This document shows positions 43,359-54,850 of a stretch of 64,000 bases of DNA, one piece after another (the first letter of the stretch is position 1; each line of letters starts with the position of its first letter). Origin of the DNA: Methanocella paludicola SANAE (GTDB lineage: Archaea; Halobacteriota; Methanocellia; Methanocellales; Methanocellaceae); the NCBI RefSeq assembly GCF_000011005.1, contig NC_013665.1:558001-622000 (forward strand), read 5' to 3'. Under the pieces are notes generated by a model. That model was not told the origin of the DNA, did no database searches, and saw only the letters and a program-made list of their open reading frames with translations. The translations under genes were made by a program, and so were the position numbers.

Positions 43359-43574
43359 TTACTTTTTTTCCAGCGCCTCGATACGCATCTCCATCTCGAT
43401 CATGGCGTTCATGAGGGCGGCCTCGGTATGGTTAGGGTGCATGACCAGCGTCTCCTCCCGGCGCCCGGCCAGCTCGAACATGATGTAATCGAACACTTCA
43501 CGCCGTTTTCTATCGAGGGCAAGGCGGTAATTATCGAACCGCTTTGCGACCATCATCAAATGCATGCTGGGCAT
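43359..43574 (-). CDS. Small helical protein, function unknown
   Basis: A 71-residue, Met-rich protein predicted to be helical (KRFDNYRLALDRKRREVFDYIMFELAGRREE, then HTEAALMNAMIEMEMRIEALEKK). The last ~30 residues could form a short coiled coil. No family is recognised. It lies 99 bases after the actin-like ATPase gene on the same strand, with its own TATA-like sequence between, so operon membership is possible but not certain. It converges on trxB with five bases between. Confidence 0.62.
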   Translation of the reverse strand: MPSMHLMMVAKRFDNYRLALDRKRREVFDYIMFELAGRREETLVMHPNHTEAALMNAMIEMEMRIEALEKK

Positions 43575-43673: not shown

Positions 43674-44801
43674 TTATTCGCGGTACTGCAGCGTGTACTC
43701 GGAGATGCGGTAAGCGCCGATCGCGGGCGCAAGGTCCGGGCGGTCGCTCGAGATCACGGTGACCTTCTGCTCCAGCTCGTCCGAGAGAAGCTGCTGTATG
43801 CGCTCCTTCAGGCCGGGGATGCACGCCATGCCGCCCGTAAGGATAATGGGCTCGGACAGGACACGCTTGTACGTCTGGTAGTGGTCCTGGGCTAACTGGG
43901 GGAAGAAGTTCTCCATGATGGCCTCGACCACGTTGTTCACGTACTCCTCGACGGGCTTCATGATGCTCTTCTCGATCTTGAAGCCGTACTGGCCCTTGTC
44001 GTGGATGTGGACGGAATCGTAAACGGGCTTGTAGTCGATGAAGTTGGCGAACTCCTCTTTGTACTTTCTCGCCGTGTTCAGGTCGATGTTCACGATGCCC
44101 TGGGTCTCGTTCTGGACGCCCAGCCTTATCTTCCGGTCAACGATGTTGCCGCTGATGGTACCCAGCGTAACAGTATGCACGGGCTCGCCGTTACGGAACA
44201 CGCTCATCTCGAGCGTGGTGGAGCCCATGTTGACGCTCATGAAGGTCTTCTTGATGGCGTCGAGGCCGTCGAACGCGGGAATGGCGCCGCAGAACGCCTC
44301 GGACCAGGCCTGCCTGCCGGCGCGGCCGATGGACATGCCCGATATGATCTCCTTCAGGTTCTTCCTTCCCCGGTCGTTCTCGACCGCGGGGTGAGCCAGC
44401 GTAACGTAGCTGTTCTCCGGGATGTTATACTTATAAACGAGATACTCGATGAACTGGGCGGCCAGCTTTACGCTGTCGTCGTCCTGGGGCAGGCCCGCGC
44501 GGAACATGAAGTACACGGAATCGGCGTACTCCTCTGCCGCCTCATCGCCGAACTTGGTGGCCAGCTTGCCCGTAAAAAGGTCCCTGTACTTGGCGACGCA
44601 GGTCAGGGTCCGCACTATGTCCAGGCTGCCCTCGTAGTTGGGCATCACGAGCACCGTCCTGGTAGACCCTATCTTCAGCCCGATGGGTATGGAGTCGGTG
44701 CTCCTCTTCCTCATGGTATTGTTATTCTCCGCAAATCCGTATGCGGGATTACCATCGTCTGCCATCGTATCATTGCCTATGTTATCATTAGGTTCGACCA
44801 T
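43674..44801 (-). CDS. Actin/MreB/ParM-like ATPase
   Basis: A 375-residue actin-superfamily protein. The nucleotide-site motifs are present: phosphate-1 near 38-53 (IPIGLKIGSTRTVLV), phosphate-2 near 188-202 (MSVNMGSTTLEMSVF) and the adenosine motif near 319-331 (IILTGGMACIPGL). The first ~35 residues are Asn/Asp-rich and probably disordered. It lacks the HSP70 substrate domain and is closer in length to MreB/ParM-type filament proteins, though no subfamily is assignable by eye. It begins 15 bases after the transmembrane PEGA/winged-helix gene, so the two are co-transcribed and probably work together. GGAT lies five bases before the ATG. Confidence 0.85.
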   Translation of the reverse strand: MVEPNDNIGNDTMADDGNPAYGFAENNNTMRKRSTDSIPIGLKIGSTRTVLVMPNYEGSLDIVRTLTCVAKYRDLFTGKLATKFGDEAAEEYADSVYFMFRAGLPQDDDSVKLAAQFIEYLVYKYNIPENSYVTLAHPAVENDRGRKNLKEIISGMSIGRAGRQAWSEAFCGAIPAFDGLDAIKKTFMSVNMGSTTLEMSVFRNGEPVHTVTLGTISGNIVDRKIRLGVQNETQGIVNIDLNTARKYKEEFANFIDYKPVYDSVHIHDKGQYGFKIEKSIMKPVEEYVNNVVEAIMENFFPQLAQDHYQTYKRVLSEPIILTGGMACIPGLKERIQQLLSDELEQKVTVISSDRPDLAPAIGAYRISEYTLQYRE

Positions 44802-44816
44802 TCAAATCCAGCCTCT

Positions 44817-47066
44817 TTACTTATCGCCGTCCAGCCTCCAGACGACCACGGACGACGAGCTGTCGTCGGACGACGACGAGTGGGACTTGTAGTAGTACAG
44901 CCCTTTGACCTTCTCGATGTCGTCGTTGATGACCAGCTCCTTGGTGATGTAGGTGAGATTATTGGGGATGATCTCCAGATCGTTGCTCATCTGGATGAAC
45001 GAGACGCCCTCCGGGTGGTCCCGGATGTAGCGGAGCACGCGCTCCTTGTCGCCCGCGGACGTGCTGGCGTCGCGCTGGCCAGATATCCTCGGGATGCGGA
45101 ACCGCTCGTTGCGCTCCGGGGCCGTTGGCCTTTCGACCAGCGCCTCCCTCTCGCTCACGGGCTGCGCCCGCTGCGGGGGGTCATAGCTGCTTCTGGACGG
45201 CTCCTCGTAGCTCCTGGCCTCGTAATTCCTCGAGGGCTCGGCGTAGCGCTCTACGTTGCTCTTGGACTTCTTGTAGATATCGTTCGCGAAGACGACGGGG
45301 CTCTTCTCCTTCGGGGCCTCGATCGGCTCCCGCGCCTTGATCTTTTTGGGCACGCCCTCGGCGATGTGCTTCAGGTCGAAGTCGAGGATCTTTTTCTTCC
45401 TGCCCTCTTCTACCGGGGCCGGCTCGCGCTTTCTCTTCACCGGGTCGACGTTTACGACATTCACGTTGTCCCCTGGCGTGCTTTCCTGCCTCGCCCTGAT
45501 CGTTTCCCTCTTCGAGGCCTCCTGCTTCGCCACCTCTGCTTTATGAGATTTAGCCACTTCGCGGTCGGCCTTCGCGCTTCCCAGCTTATGGGTGAACCCG
45601 TTCAGAGCCCTGGAGACTGGGGCGAGAATGCCCTTGATCCGGGTCGCCAGCAGGAAGACGATGGCGATGATGGCGATGAGAAGTATGATGATCGCAACGA
45701 CGAGCGTTACCCACGCGGGCACTACGGCCTTCTCCATGCTCATGATGAAGTCGGGGTGCTGCTGGTTGGCCTCCATCGTGATGGTGTCCGTGCTGTCGGA
45801 ATAGCCGTCCTTGCTCATCTTGATCGTATGTGTGCCTGCGTCGATGTAGGCCGTACACGGCGTCATCAGGGGCGTGTTATCGGGGCCGAAAAGCTGCTGG
45901 CCGTCGACATAGATGTACGCTCCGGTCGGGACCGAGGAGAGGCTTACCCAGCCGCCTTTGGAAAAGGACACCACGACGTTCGGCATCGTGACGCTCCGGG
46001 CGGCGTTCTCCATCCCGTAGCCCATGATGACGTTCGGGAAGTACAGCGCCCTGGCATCGCTGTTAGGGGCGATGACCGTCTGTTTTTGGTTGCTCAGGTC
46101 CGTGTACTCCACCTGGACCTTGATGTCCTTCTTGGACTGGATGGACTTGCCGTCGTTCGTCGTCGGGGCCACGCCGTTAAACACGTACTTGCCGTTGCTG
46201 TCCGTGACGGTCGTCACCATGGACCCGTCCATGTTTTTCATCGGTATGTACCCGGACTGGTTATCCGCCTTCTGCAGGAGGGTCACGACCGCCCCTTCGA
46301 CGGGCTTGCCGTCCTTGGTGATCACGGTGCCGTTAACGATATTGGAATGGCTTGTCGGCATATCCGACGGGTCGGGGCTGCTGGACGGTGTTGTAAGCGG
46401 TAAGATGATGCGGGTCTCGAGGACGTTGTTGATGTCCGCGTTCCGCGTTACTGTGATCTGCTTGTGAGTGGACTCGTAACAGACGCCGTTCTCCCAGTGC
46501 TGGGCATATATCATGTACGTGCCGGCCGGGACGTAGAACGTGTAGCTTCCCTTGCCGTCCGTCCTCTCCGCGAACTGGTAATACTTGACATCGTTATCCA
46601 TGCTCACCAGGTAGACGATCCCGGTGATGAAGCTGGCACTGTTGCCCGTTCCGCTCTGGATGGCGCCGTAGACGTATCCGTATTCGGGCTCGGGATAGTT
46701 AGGTATCTGGGTCTCTGAGGACGGTATGGTCTGTATGCTCTTGGTCGGATACCATCGGGCATAATACGTCGGCATCTCGTATTTTGTGCCGTCCGTGTCC
46801 GTGTACGAAACCCTCACGGTACACGTATCAGTGTCGGCGATGACGTTGATAAAATCGAAGTTGCCATTCTCGTTCGTTTTCTTAGTTGCGATCGTTTTGT
46901 ATGCGTTATCGATGAGCGTGACATCGGCGCCGGATAAAGGGTTCCCGTACCGGTCGACGACCATGCCGCTGATACTAAACGCGGTACCCGCGGCGTTTAC
47001 TCCCGTGACGGCAGTTAGTGATAATAATATGACGCTAATAAGCAATAGGTTAATGAACTTTTTCAT
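44817..47066 (-). CDS. Transmembrane Ig/PEGA protein with cytoplasmic winged helix
   Basis: A 749-residue single-pass protein. Residues 1-25 are a signal peptide. Carboxypeptidase-regulatory/Ig-like domains span about 30-110, 125-215 and 240-345; a PEGA domain spans about 371-440 (GWVSLSSVPTGAYIYVDGQ, then HTIKMSKDGYSD). The membrane helix is about 450-475. A basic, disordered linker (476-665) leads to a winged-helix domain (about 672-727, KERVLRYIRDHPEGVSFIQMSNDLEI). With the signal peptide the N-part is outside and the winged helix inside. This could be a membrane-bound transcription factor or a DNA-membrane tether, and the neighbouring actin-like ATPase favours the second; both are inference. 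The final residues are Ser/Asp-rich. Confidence 0.86.
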   Translation of the reverse strand: MKKFINLLLISVILLSLTAVTGVNAAGTAFSISGMVVDRYGNPLSGADVTLIDNAYKTIATKKTNENGNFDFINVIADTDTCTVRVSYTDTDGTKYEMPTYYARWYPTKSIQTIPSSETQIPNYPEPEYGYVYGAIQSGTGNSASFITGIVYLVSMDNDVKYYQFAERTDGKGSYTFYVPAGTYMIYAQHWENGVCYESTHKQITVTRNADINNVLETRIILPLTTPSSSPDPSDMPTSHSNIVNGTVITKDGKPVEGAVVTLLQKADNQSGYIPMKNMDGSMVTTVTDSNGKYVFNGVAPTTNDGKSIQSKKDIKVQVEYTDLSNQKQTVIAPNSDARALYFPNVIMGYGMENAARSVTMPNVVVSFSKGGWVSLSSVPTGAYIYVDGQQLFGPDNTPLMTPCTAYIDAGTHTIKMSKDGYSDSTDTITMEANQQHPDFIMSMEKAVVPAWVTLVVAIIILLIAIIAIVFLLATRIKGILAPVSRALNGFTHKLGSAKADREVAKSHKAEVAKQEASKRETIRARQESTPGDNVNVVNVDPVKRKREPAPVEEGRKKKILDFDLKHIAEGVPKKIKAREPIEAPKEKSPVVFANDIYKKSKSNVERYAEPSRNYEARSYEEPSRSSYDPPQRAQPVSEREALVERPTAPERNERFRIPRISGQRDASTSAGDKERVLRYIRDHPEGVSFIQMSNDLEIIPNNLTYITKELVINDDIEKVKGLYYYKSHSSSSDDSSSSVVVWRLDGDK

Positions 47067-50063: not shown

Positions 50064-50651
50064 CTACTTTACCTTGGGCATCAGCTTGCTAACGGCATCG
50101 AAGGCGTCCACATCGGGCACCTTCGAGTCCACCCACTTCGTCAGCGACTCTTTCTTGAGCTTCGCCTTCTTCATGATCTGGGTCTTGATGGACTCGACGT
50201 CGCCCTTCGTGAGCCCGAAGTAATCGCAAAACGCCTCGGTCGTCGTGAGCTCGTACGAACGCCCGACGCGCTTCTTCTCGATAAGGTCCTTTTCCAGGAG
50301 CATGGCCACGTGATCGTAGGCGGCCTGGCCCCGGATGTCCACCAGGTCTGACTGCTGGATGGGCTGGTAATAGGCGATGACCGATAACGTGCGCAGCGCG
50401 GGGGCCCGGAGCTCGCCCGGCGAAAAGCCCACAACGCGCTCGGCGTACTCCGGCCTGAGCTGCATGGCGTATTTTCCCTCAAGCCTCACGATCTCCAGAG
50501 GCGAGTTACGCTCACGATACTCCTCCATGAGCTTCTGCGCCAGCGAATTGATGTAGGTGCTCGACCGGTTCAGCAGGCTTTTCAATTGCTGCTCGCTCAC
50601 GGGCTTACCGGCCGAAAACAGCGCGGCCTCCATCAGGCTCTTCTCATCCAT
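50064..50651 (-). CDS. scpB: Condensin subunit ScpB
   Basis: A 195-residue ScpB, the winged-helix kite subunit of the SMC-ScpAB condensin. The N-terminal KSLMEAALFSAGKPVSEQQLKSLL is the usual ScpB start (EAxLFxxGxPV), the middle has LSVIAYYQPIQQSDLVDIRG, and the second winged helix includes DYFGLTKGD near the end. ScpB dimers bind the ScpA kleisin. The start ATG overlaps the scpA end by eight bases, with GGAGG ten bases upstream, so it is translationally coupled. It is last in the condensin operon. Confidence 0.95.
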   Translation of the reverse strand: MDEKSLMEAALFSAGKPVSEQQLKSLLNRSSTYINSLAQKLMEEYRERNSPLEIVRLEGKYAMQLRPEYAERVVGFSPGELRAPALRTLSVIAYYQPIQQSDLVDIRGQAAYDHVAMLLEKDLIEKKRVGRSYELTTTEAFCDYFGLTKGDVESIKTQIMKKAKLKKESLTKWVDSKVPDVDAFDAVSKLMPKVK

Positions 50652-51339
50652 TCGGCACAGACCTCCTGATGAAAATATCCTCGAACAATATCTCCTGCGT
50701 GAGCATAACGTACTTGCGGTTCGCCAAAAACAGCAGGGGCAGGTACACGTCCACGATGCCGTGGGGCGTGGGGTCCTTGATTAATTCGGAGAACATGACG
50801 AAGTCCCGGTAGGCGAACTCCCGGTCCAGCGCGCTGGTCATCTCCAGGATGCTCGCCTCGATGTCCTCGTTGTGGGCGATGCCCAGCACTTCCTCGATGG
50901 TCTTCCTGGGCGGCTTCTCGATCTTCAGGGCCTTCCTCATGTGCGAAGCGTCCTTCGTGGCCACGGCCCGCTGCAGCTCGGTGATTAGCTCCTGCAGGGT
51001 GACGGGGCGGGCGACGGCGTTCCGCTGCCGGGGCTCCAGCATCGGGTAGTCCTCGGGCTCCAGGTCGAAGTCAGGCCCGAAGGCGTAATCGTCATCGGGC
51101 TCGGGCGGCGGGGCGTTGACCAGCACGTCGGACTTCATGCGCAATAAGATGGAAGCGTACAGCAGCGTCCTGGCCGAGGCGGGGAGGTCGACCTTTTCCC
51201 TCTCCACGATCCTGGCCAGGAAACGGTCGGTGACGTCGATGATGTCGATGTTCCACGGGTCGATCTCGCCCGACCTGGCCATCTCCAGCAGTATCTCGAT
51301 GGACTCTTCCTGGTGCTGCGCCGGCGCCTCAGTCTGCAC
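50644..51339 (-). CDS. scpA: Condensin kleisin subunit ScpA
   Basis: A 231-residue kleisin that bridges SMC heads. The N-terminal part reads EESIEILLEMARSGEIDPWNIDIIDVTDRFLARIV, the conserved ScpA N-terminus; LPASARTLLYASILLRMKSDVLV follows. The C-terminal winged helix binds the second SMC head. The GTG start overlaps the smc stop by 11 bases, with GGGGTGA seven bases upstream, so translation is coupled. A disordered acidic linker lies near 80-115. Confidence 0.95.
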   Translation of the reverse strand: MQTEAPAQHQEESIEILLEMARSGEIDPWNIDIIDVTDRFLARIVEREKVDLPASARTLLYASILLRMKSDVLVNAPPPEPDDDYAFGPDFDLEPEDYPMLEPRQRNAVARPVTLQELITELQRAVATKDASHMRKALKIEKPPRKTIEEVLGIAHNEDIEASILEMTSALDREFAYRDFVMFSELIKDPTPHGIVDVYLPLLFLANRKYVMLTQEILFEDIFIRRSVPNG

Positions 51340-54300
51340 GGAGCTTCACCCCCGTGATGCTCGAGATGTTATTTTCCTGCATGGCGATGCCGATGGTGCG
51401 GTTGGCCGACTCGATCATGGGCTTCCTCAGGGAGACGACTATGAACTGCGCATTCGTGGATAATTTCTTTATCATTCTTGCGACTCTTTCAGCGTTGGCG
51501 CCGTCCAGGAACATGTCGATCTCGTCGAACGCGTAGAACGGCGCTGGCTTGTAGCGCTGGATGGCAAATATGAAAGCTAAAGCAGTAAGGCTCTTTTCTC
51601 CTCCCGACATGGCTTCCAGCCGATACAACGACTTGCCGTAGGGCTGGGCGCGGATGGTCAGGCCGCCGGAGAACGGGTCCTCCGGGCTCTCCAGGACCAG
51701 CTCGCCGAACCCGTCGGACAGCTCGTTGAAAATCACCTTGAACTGCTCGTTGATGGCGTTGAACGTAGTGAGGAACGTCTCCATCTTCATGGTCTTATAG
51801 TGCTCGATCTTCTCCAGGATGTTCTCTCTTTCCTTTTGCAGCGTGTCCCTCTTGCCCGTGAGCTCGGCCAGCCTGGCCTGGACGCCGTCGTACTCCGTGA
51901 TGGAGAGCATGTTGACCGGCTCCAGCGCCTGCATCTTCTTTTCGAGCTGGGATATGCTGGCCCGGACCTTATCGACCGGCGGCACGTCCTCGGACGGCAT
52001 AACGCCCCGCTCCTGCACCACCTTCTCGAACACCTTGATCTTGTCCAGGCTCTCCTCTCTCGCTATTTCGAGCGAGTTGAGCATGCCCGTGAGCCTTTCC
52101 AGTGAGCGGCGGGCGTCGTACAGGTCGTGATCGGCCGCCGTCAGGGCGTCGGACATCTCGTCGCGCTGCTTTTTCATCCCGGCGAGCTCCGACTCGATGG
52201 CCTTCTCGCGTTTCGTGAGATCCTCGATCTTCCCGTTGAACTCGCCGATGGCCGCCTCGTTCTGCGAGATCTTCTCCCTCAGCGAGGCGATGTTCTCGTC
52301 GACCTTCTCGCCCCTGCCCTTGTTCTCCTCGACGCGGGCCCTCACGTAGTTCTGTTCAATTTTTAATGACGCGATGGCCGATTCCGTGTCCCTGAGCCGC
52401 CCGTCGAGGCGCTTCATCTCATCCTCGATGCGCCCCGACTCTTCCGTAAGGGCGGGTACCTCGGAGCCCTTTAGCTCCTCTTCGAGCTTGCCGGCTTCGG
52501 CGCCGATCGTGGTGATCTCGCTGTCCGCCTTCGATATGGCCTCCTCGGCGGCTATGAGCTCGTCCCTGAGCTTCCTGCGGTCTTCCCGGAGAGACTCGAT
52601 AGAGGCCTCCTTCTCCTTGATAACGGCTTCCAGCCGGGTAAGACGCCCGGCCAGCTCCTCCTTACGGGCCGTGAGCTTCGAGGCCTGCGTCTCCATGTCC
52701 GACCGGTCCTTCTTGAGGCCGTAGATGTGGCCGTCGATGGACTCGACCTTCTTGAGGACTGAGTCGCGGCTCGACTCCAGTATCGTGATCTGCTCGGCTA
52801 ATTCCTTGATGTGTTCCTCTTCGGAGGCCTTGAACTTGAGCTTCGTGCGGGAGCGGTAGCCGCCGGTCATGGCGCCGCTCTTCTCGACGAGATCGCCGTC
52901 CAGCGTGACCATCCTGCCGGTGCCGATGAGGCGGCGGGCGGTCTCCAGCGTGTCCACGACCAGGGTGTCGCCGAACACGTACCAGAAGGCCGGGTCGAAC
53001 CTCCCGTCGAACTGTACGAGGTTAATGGCATAGTCGATGACGCCAGGCTCCCTGATATTGCGCAGCTGGACCCGCTGGCGCATCTTGTTGAGCGGCAGGA
53101 ACGTGGCCGTGCCCTTCCGCTGGCCTTTTAAGTAGTAAATGCACCGGGCGGCGTCCTCGTCGTTGTCCACCACGATGTTCTGCATGCGATTGCCCGCAGC
53201 CACTTCGAGCGCGGTCGCATACTCCTGGTCGACCTTGCCTAATTCGGCGATGGTGCCGTAGATGCCCGGTAATTCGTGCGAGTTCCGGGCGCCGATGATG
53301 GTCCCGACGGCCTCGCTGTACCCGTCCAGGTCCTCGTAAGCCCTGACCCTGGCCTCGGCCTTCGCGAACTCTTCCTGCAGCTTGCGCAGCTTCTCCTCGA
53401 TGCCGTGCTGCTCTGCCCTCGTCCTCGACCGGGCCCCTTCCATGTCGTTGATGTCGGCCGTCAGGGCCTGGCTGCGGCGCTGCAGCTCGGCAACGTCCTT
53501 CTCCAGGTTCTTCGACTCGACCCGGGCCTCCTCGATGCGGCTCCGGCTCGATGTAATTTCAGTCGAGGCGTCCTGCTCCTCGTCCTGCTTGCGGCGGGCC
53601 GCGTCCAGGATACGGTCCTTTTCACGTAATTTCTCGTTCCGCAGATTCCGGGAGGCCTCCAGGGCCGCCTTCACCTCGACGAGCCGGGTCCGCACGCCGA
53701 TGAACTTCTCGTCGATGGCCGATATTTTCTTCTGCACCTCGTCCAGGCTGGCCTGGCGGAAGTTCAGCTCGTTAGTGAGGCTAAGCTTGCGCTTCTCCTC
53801 TTCGGCGATCTTGCCGTCGTACTCCTCGATCTGGCCCTTCGCCTTTTCCGTCTCCAGGAAGAGCTTTTGCTTCTCCGAGTCTCTGTTCGCGATCTCGGAC
53901 TTCGAGAAATCGATGATGCTGATGCAGGCCTTGATCCCGGCGCGGGCCTCCTCGATCTGCCTGCGGATGAGTATCTGCTCGCCCTCGCCCTTTTCCGTTA
54001 TGGTGGCGTTGAGCGCCTTGATGTCGTCCTTGAGCTTTTGTACGGCCGCGCTTTTCTTCTCAACGTCTGCCGTTATCGCGGCCCTCTTATCGGTCTTGTC
54101 CCTGATGTCCTCGAGCAGAGAATCGAGCAGCTGCTGAGCTTCCTTCAGCTCGGACAAAACAAGATAACCTTCGTTCTTGACCTTCTCGTCCCTGTACGAC
54201 TGGTACAGGAGCGCGTGGTCGCGCTCGTCCTTTAGCTGGGCGAGGCGGGCCTCGACTTCGGAAATAATTATGGCGACCCGGTCGATCCGGTCACGTACGA

Positions 54301-54850
54301 TATCCAGCTCTGACAATGCTTTGTCGGTCTTTTCGTCAAACTCCGCCGTGCCGGCGATCTCGTCGATCATCTTGCGGCGCTCGAAGTTACTCACCTCGAT
54401 GATGCGCGTAACGTCCCCCTGCATTACCACGTTATAGCCGTCGGGGGATATTTTCGCCTTCAAGAGGTGCTCGTGGATCTCCGAGAGGGAGACGGGCTTC
54501 TCGTTAAAGTAATAGTATGAGTAGTAGCCGCTGTCGCTGGACTTGATGCGTCTCGTTATCGTGACCTCGTCCTGGTCGATGGGCATCTCCCGGTCCGTGT
54601 TATCGAACCGGATGGTGACGTCCGCGGACCCGGGGCTCTTGCCGTTCACGCTGTAGATGAGGTCCGTCAGCTTTTCGGCCCTCATAGAGCGGGAGTTCGA
54701 CAGGCCCAGGCAAAAGAGTATGCTATCGATGACGTTGCTTTTACCGGAGCCGTTGGGGCCGCTGATGGTGGTAAAGTCGTCAAAGAAGGGTATTTTGGCC
54801 TTACGGCCGAACGATTTGAAATTGTTAAGCTCGATCTCTTTGATGTGCAT
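51329..54850 (-). CDS. smc: Chromosome-condensation ATPase SMC
   Basis: An 1173-residue SMC, the normal length. The N-terminal head has Walker A GPNGSGKSN near 33-41; long coiled coils flank a hinge domain (about 510-665, starting near GYSEAVGTIIGARNSHELPGIYG). The C-terminal head has signature LSGGE-like AMSGGEKSL and Walker B FYAFDEIDMFLDG. SMC dimers with ScpA and ScpB compact and segregate chromosomes by loop extrusion. A TATA sequence in a small dyad (CGAGTTTATACTCG, near 54868-54881) lies between it and the upstream coiled-coil gene, so it may also have its own promoter. It leads the scpA-scpB genes. Confidence 0.97.
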   Translation of the reverse strand: MHIKEIELNNFKSFGRKAKIPFFDDFTTISGPNGSGKSNVIDSILFCLGLSNSRSMRAEKLTDLIYSVNGKSPGSADVTIRFDNTDREMPIDQDEVTITRRIKSSDSGYYSYYYFNEKPVSLSEIHEHLLKAKISPDGYNVVMQGDVTRIIEVSNFERRKMIDEIAGTAEFDEKTDKALSELDIVRDRIDRVAIIISEVEARLAQLKDERDHALLYQSYRDEKVKNEGYLVLSELKEAQQLLDSLLEDIRDKTDKRAAITADVEKKSAAVQKLKDDIKALNATITEKGEGEQILIRRQIEEARAGIKACISIIDFSKSEIANRDSEKQKLFLETEKAKGQIEEYDGKIAEEEKRKLSLTNELNFRQASLDEVQKKISAIDEKFIGVRTRLVEVKAALEASRNLRNEKLREKDRILDAARRKQDEEQDASTEITSSRSRIEEARVESKNLEKDVAELQRRSQALTADINDMEGARSRTRAEQHGIEEKLRKLQEEFAKAEARVRAYEDLDGYSEAVGTIIGARNSHELPGIYGTIAELGKVDQEYATALEVAAGNRMQNIVVDNDEDAARCIYYLKGQRKGTATFLPLNKMRQRVQLRNIREPGVIDYAINLVQFDGRFDPAFWYVFGDTLVVDTLETARRLIGTGRMVTLDGDLVEKSGAMTGGYRSRTKLKFKASEEEHIKELAEQITILESSRDSVLKKVESIDGHIYGLKKDRSDMETQASKLTARKEELAGRLTRLEAVIKEKEASIESLREDRRKLRDELIAAEEAISKADSEITTIGAEAGKLEEELKGSEVPALTEESGRIEDEMKRLDGRLRDTESAIASLKIEQNYVRARVEENKGRGEKVDENIASLREKISQNEAAIGEFNGKIEDLTKREKAIESELAGMKKQRDEMSDALTAADHDLYDARRSLERLTGMLNSLEIAREESLDKIKVFEKVVQERGVMPSEDVPPVDKVRASISQLEKKMQALEPVNMLSITEYDGVQARLAELTGKRDTLQKERENILEKIEHYKTMKMETFLTTFNAINEQFKVIFNELSDGFGELVLESPEDPFSGGLTIRAQPYGKSLYRLEAMSGGEKSLTALAFIFAIQRYKPAPFYAFDEIDMFLDGANAERVARMIKKLSTNAQFIVVSLRKPMIESANRTIGIAMQENNISSITGVKLRAD

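Follow-up and report, generated by a model that had tools for sequence, protein, structure and literature searches.

The 375-residue actin-like ATPase encoded in the window (the whole stretch of 64,000 nucleotides of the Methanocella paludicola genome that was analysed) belongs to salactin, an already described family, and its profile matches make this assignment certain. Its gene directly follows that of a 749-residue membrane protein ending in a probable winged helix. By analogy with the bacterial protein RodZ, we propose that this membrane protein may be a bitopic anchor or nucleator for salactin filaments, RodZ-like in function and non-homologous to RodZ, a reading to which we give slightly less than an even chance. 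The original prediction knew of no described system with this layout. This was not upheld for the actin, since the salactin half has been known since 2023 (PMC10746226), whereas the pairing with a transmembrane winged-helix protein seems undescribed.

The gene pair occupies the genome positions 601674 to 605066 on the minus strand. The two predicted open reading frames are both present on the minus strand of the window, at 44817-47066 for the 749-residue protein and at 43674-44801 for salactin. The predicted spacing of 15 nucleotides was also found (44802-44816, minus strand), and the motif GAGG in it may serve the actin gene as a ribosome-binding site. The two genes presumably form an operon and are co-transcribed. 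An open reading frame of 71 residues (43359-43574) had been suggested as a third part; it is a conserved gene, yet it is distant from salactin in the remaining three Methanocellales genomes, and this role was rejected as the linkage is not kept in relatives.

The actin-superfamily ATPase had been correctly recognized. The protein begins with a variable N-terminal tail of about 37 residues, and the actin core that follows matches the Pfam family PF25229 from residue 38 to residue 369 (E=3e-146, 487 bits for a cut-off of 27.1). The NCBIfam equivalog NF053533 is matched with 465 bits (cut-off 400). Salactin is present in a single copy in the M. paludicola genome (2,957,635 bases searched). The residues Lys43 and Asn191 and the motif GGM at positions 323-325 are common to 36-37 aligned salactins from several families; we take Lys43 and Asn191 to occupy the sites of the two phosphate-loop aspartates of actins and MreB. 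Salactin is one of the few archaeal actins with known dynamics. In Halobacterium salinarum it forms dynamically unstable filaments growing from the poles (Zheng et al. 2023, PMC10746226), and the dynamic instability of polar filaments has been shown in Halobacterium only. When phosphate is low and ploidy declines, its deletion in Halobacterium disturbs the distribution of DNA (PMC10746226). The Methanocellales are listed there among the lineages with salactin homologues, and the synteny of salactin is called poor.

The 749-residue protein, encoded immediately upstream of salactin, has the domain plan that had been predicted, as found by Pfam and hydrophobicity, with a weaker case for the winged helix. 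All its domains are given here on the minus strand. Hydrophobic stretches are limited to residues 1-27 and 443-485. The former corresponds to a predicted signal peptide (residues 1-26, positions 46989-47066) with a hydrophobic N-terminus after MKK and a start conserved in the four orthologues; the latter is the sole internal hydrophobic stretch and the putative membrane helix region (45612-45740). Between them are found carboxypeptidase-regulatory/Ig-like domains, predicted to be extracellular (residues 27-365, 45972-46988; PF13620, E=3.3e-25, in three stretches), and a PEGA domain (residues 374-436, 45759-45947; PF08308, E=6.4e-11, above the cut-off). The sequence after the membrane helix is rich in Lys and Arg, and the C-terminus is therefore predicted to be inside the cell. 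It comprises a linker (residues 486-668 approximately, 45063-45611), then the winged-helix domain (residues 669-729) and a conserved tail (residues 730-749) with the end SSVVVWRLDG (44820-45062). The linker is basic in all four orthologues despite its divergence (pI 9.7-10.2, net charge +8 to +11). In the same orthologues both the winged helix (pI 5.5-6.1, net charge -1 to -2) and the tail (pI 4.1) are acidic. No full-length paralogue and no second copy of the winged-helix protein were found in the M. paludicola genome. A paralogue of the outer half only (402 residues, L074:1405-2613, minus strand) displays 55% identity in this half; it terminates with a membrane helix and lacks both the PEGA domain and the winged helix.

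The C-terminal domain is probably, though not provably from profile evidence, a winged helix. Residues 669-729 (approximately) have no Pfam match above the cut-off, the best ones being PF24266 (HTH_HVO_0163_N, E=0.024) and RPA_C (E=0.067). A profile was built from the four Methanocellales orthologues and searched against 394 genomes of the phylum, where it mostly recovers winged helices of the IclR/HTH_24/MarR or B-block TFIIIC types at the same positions; many of these matches have E-values of about 0.005, near the chance expectation for 394 genomes, and they were used only to define the kind of domain. Profile-profile comparisons with these winged helices gave probabilities of 90-96%, where two unrelated alignments gave 0.1-0.2%, but the targets were chosen among hits of the same profile and are thus biased in favour of a match. 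AlphaFold2 did not confirm the fold (pLDDT of 44 for the domain alone and of 48 with one relative). The best match of the domain profile in the PDB, a designed helical protein, was rejected as compositional. No match to DUF7343 or DUF7345 was found, either with the whole protein (E<=1) or with the domain (E<=10).

The comparison set consists of four Methanocellales genomes from three genera, including that of the window. It had been stated that the proposal would fall if the two genes were usually apart in relatives; salactin is present in all four genomes and is preceded each time, on the same strand, by the orthologue of the 749-residue protein (700-731 residues in the other three), with gaps of 13, 13 and 16 nucleotides in these relatives. 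The mean pairwise identity of the four orthologues is 37% for the extracellular part, 40% for the PEGA domain, 26% for the linker, 77% for the winged helix and 69% for the tail, and that of the salactin core reaches 95%. The conservation of the winged helix and tail relative to the diverged outer half and linker indicates that selection holds the cytoplasmic end. Upstream, scpB, metK and a radical SAM gene on the opposite strand are retained in this order in all four genomes, as are smc and scpA where the contig reaches; in the window, smc, scpA and scpB follow each other at 50064-54850 (minus strand), some 3 kb upstream of the two genes. Downstream, two genomes keep the gene order, from which the window and L034 depart. 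A gene for an archaeal prepilin peptidase is located after salactin in two Methanocellales loci (L033:9170-9988, PF06847, and L035:7909-8703). Beyond the order, no orthologue of the winged-helix domain was detected among the 394 genomes of the phylum, and the layout is not general to salactin.

According to the explanation that we propose, the 749-residue protein would cross the membrane once. Its Ig-like and PEGA domains would face the exterior, where they probably contact the S-layer or the envelope, and its long flexible basic linker and winged helix would lie inside the cell. The winged helix and the conserved tail would bind salactin and, at the membrane, fix or nucleate its filaments, in the manner of the HTH domain of RodZ with MreB. 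The filaments would then grow and shrink from the anchored site and act on the distribution of the chromosome as in haloarchaea. The binding of salactin, the anchoring, the polar site and the segregation role of the pair are what we infer from this comparison. An anchor is expected because salactin grows from the poles (PMC10746226). The pair is co-directional, with gaps of 13-16 nucleotides in four of four genomes, though the downstream genes differ. Moreover, since the winged helix is 77% identical, as compared with 37% for the outer part and 26% for the linker, the constraint should lie on a conserved cytoplasmic partner. Another salactin locus (L051, described below) also carries a membrane protein with a weakly matched winged helix; against the anchor, this second domain is not detectably related to that of Methanocella, and the fold is not confirmed by AlphaFold2.

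An unlikely alternative is that the 749-residue protein is an envelope protein, co-transcribed with salactin and physically unlinked to it, the adjacency reflecting a conserved gene order in a small archaeal order. This alternative and the doubts about an anchor share their evidence: the pairing is supported by four related genomes only, and the upstream position of metK and of the radical SAM gene is kept as well. As conservation extends in part to the whole block smc-scpA-scpB-metK-radical SAM-partner-salactin, some of the adjacency may be an inherited order. The partner is also absent from the other salactin clades and is therefore not a universal anchor. However, the short and constant gap, the persistence of the pair where the downstream order changes and a strong selective constraint restricted to the cytoplasmic domain speak against an unlinked envelope protein.

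The other two alternatives give the cytoplasmic domain a different role. A role of the pair in segregation can reasonably be supposed, given that the loss of salactin perturbs the distribution of DNA (PMC10746226) and that smc-scpA-scpB lies nearby in conserved order. As a membrane-tethered segregation adaptor, the protein would bind a chromosomal site by its winged helix while salactin moves or holds this site, and the chromosome would be tied to the envelope. Winged helices bind DNA in many families, the profile recovers domains of the HTH_IclR/MarR type, the winged-helix protein TubR is the adaptor of a filament system (PMC5016525), and the linker of the 749-residue protein is basic. The winged helix and its tail are nevertheless acidic, a composition which fits protein binding better than DNA binding, and the sequence predicted as recognition helix (NNLTYITKELVIND) has a polar, non-basic character, with a short wing. 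The DNA binding initially predicted is thus not favoured by the composition, RodZ-like protein binding being at least as likely, and we regard the adaptor as improbable. Very improbable in our opinion is an envelope sensor or regulator, in which the outer domains would sense the envelope state or a ligand, the winged helix would regulate genes or the assembly of salactin, and the actin would be the effector. Ig-like and PEGA domains are typical binding modules and membrane-anchored winged-helix proteins exist in archaea; but no ligand-binding signature was found, the extracellular half is poorly conserved (37%) and no match of the DUF7343/DUF7345 type links the protein to such regulators.

In other archaea, salactin has other neighbours. 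Among the haloarchaeal salactin loci (L053-L072, L114-L120 and L003-L032), 29 of 38 have a co-directional gene with an ArlD/E domain (PF04659) next to salactin, located upstream in 28. The 13 haloarchaeal genomes checked each contain exactly two PF04659 genes. In seven of the 13, the short one adjoins salactin, and in three genomes of another family it adjoins the long one. As only two such genes exist per genome checked, ArlD itself, a polar protein, may be this neighbour; in Haloferax, FlaD-GFP has a polar localization (PMC6509185). In family f5 (apparently Archaeoglobus-like) and in one genome of f31, a coiled-coil protein and a ParA/MinD-type ATPase come after salactin, in this order, and the ATPase is conserved in both families. 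The coiled-coil proteins downstream of salactin in L037-L050 (f5, f31 and f6) share the start KWDxLFEEL and the C-terminus SPRIL/SPRLL. A genome of another class (G155, L051) displays, in one putative operon, salactin, a 499-residue coiled-coil protein ending in TPRIL, the same short C-terminal motif, and then a protein of 258 residues with a weak winged-helix family match in its middle and a C-terminal membrane helix; no relationship between this winged helix and that of Methanocella was detectable. In L036, L037, L041 and L046, a PhoU-type regulator is found directly upstream of salactin, and this regulator adjoins a divergent operon resembling those for phosphate uptake (binding protein and two permeases), which is of note because the salactin phenotype appears at low phosphate. 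Genes of the type IV pilus type occur near salactin in some f5 loci.

Salactin thus has conserved, clade-specific neighbours, several of them polar or membrane-linked, whereas the published account, centred on Halobacterium, reports poor synteny. Most economically, each clade would have a way of its own to fix salactin at a membrane or pole. A wider proposal, which we consider rather unlikely, is that a transmembrane receptor couples the envelope to chromosome-moving salactin filaments, with an anchor replaced according to the lineage (PEGA/winged helix, ArlD/E, or coiled coil and ParA). The conserved membrane-spanning partner offers a tangible candidate for the anchor that should hold salactin at the membrane, and the way in which an archaeal segregation filament is held and positioned becomes a directly testable question.

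Among known systems, the salactin of H. salinarum belongs to the same actin family as the M. paludicola protein over the whole core. Unlike the Methanocella pair, it was described without a partner, and neither an anchor or adaptor nor a PEGA or winged-helix protein is mentioned in the text of that account (PMC10746226). In haloarchaea, a PF04659 gene (ArlD/FlaD) takes the place of the partner next to salactin; however, its product is cytosolic and its profile compares with the Methanocella winged helix at a probability of 0.2%. The type III partition system TubR-TubZ also pairs a winged-helix protein with a polymerising NTPase, TubR binding both the centromere DNA (tubC) and the TubZ filament through its winged helix (PMC5016525), but TubR is small and soluble and its filament is a tubulin, whereas Methanocella has a 749-residue membrane protein and an actin. 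In the RodZ-MreB system, as in Methanocella, a bitopic membrane protein whose inner domain is of the HTH type is found beside an actin-like filament protein, and the HTH domain of RodZ binds MreB and not DNA (PMC6946637). The topology is opposite, the inner domain of the Methanocella protein being C-terminal, and the outer domains differ; no match to the RodZ family or to an XRE-type HTH was found in the 749-residue protein with Pfam or NCBIfam, and by these tests the two proteins do not appear homologous. A bridge between envelope, cytoskeleton and chromosome, if true, would be an archaeal counterpart by function only.
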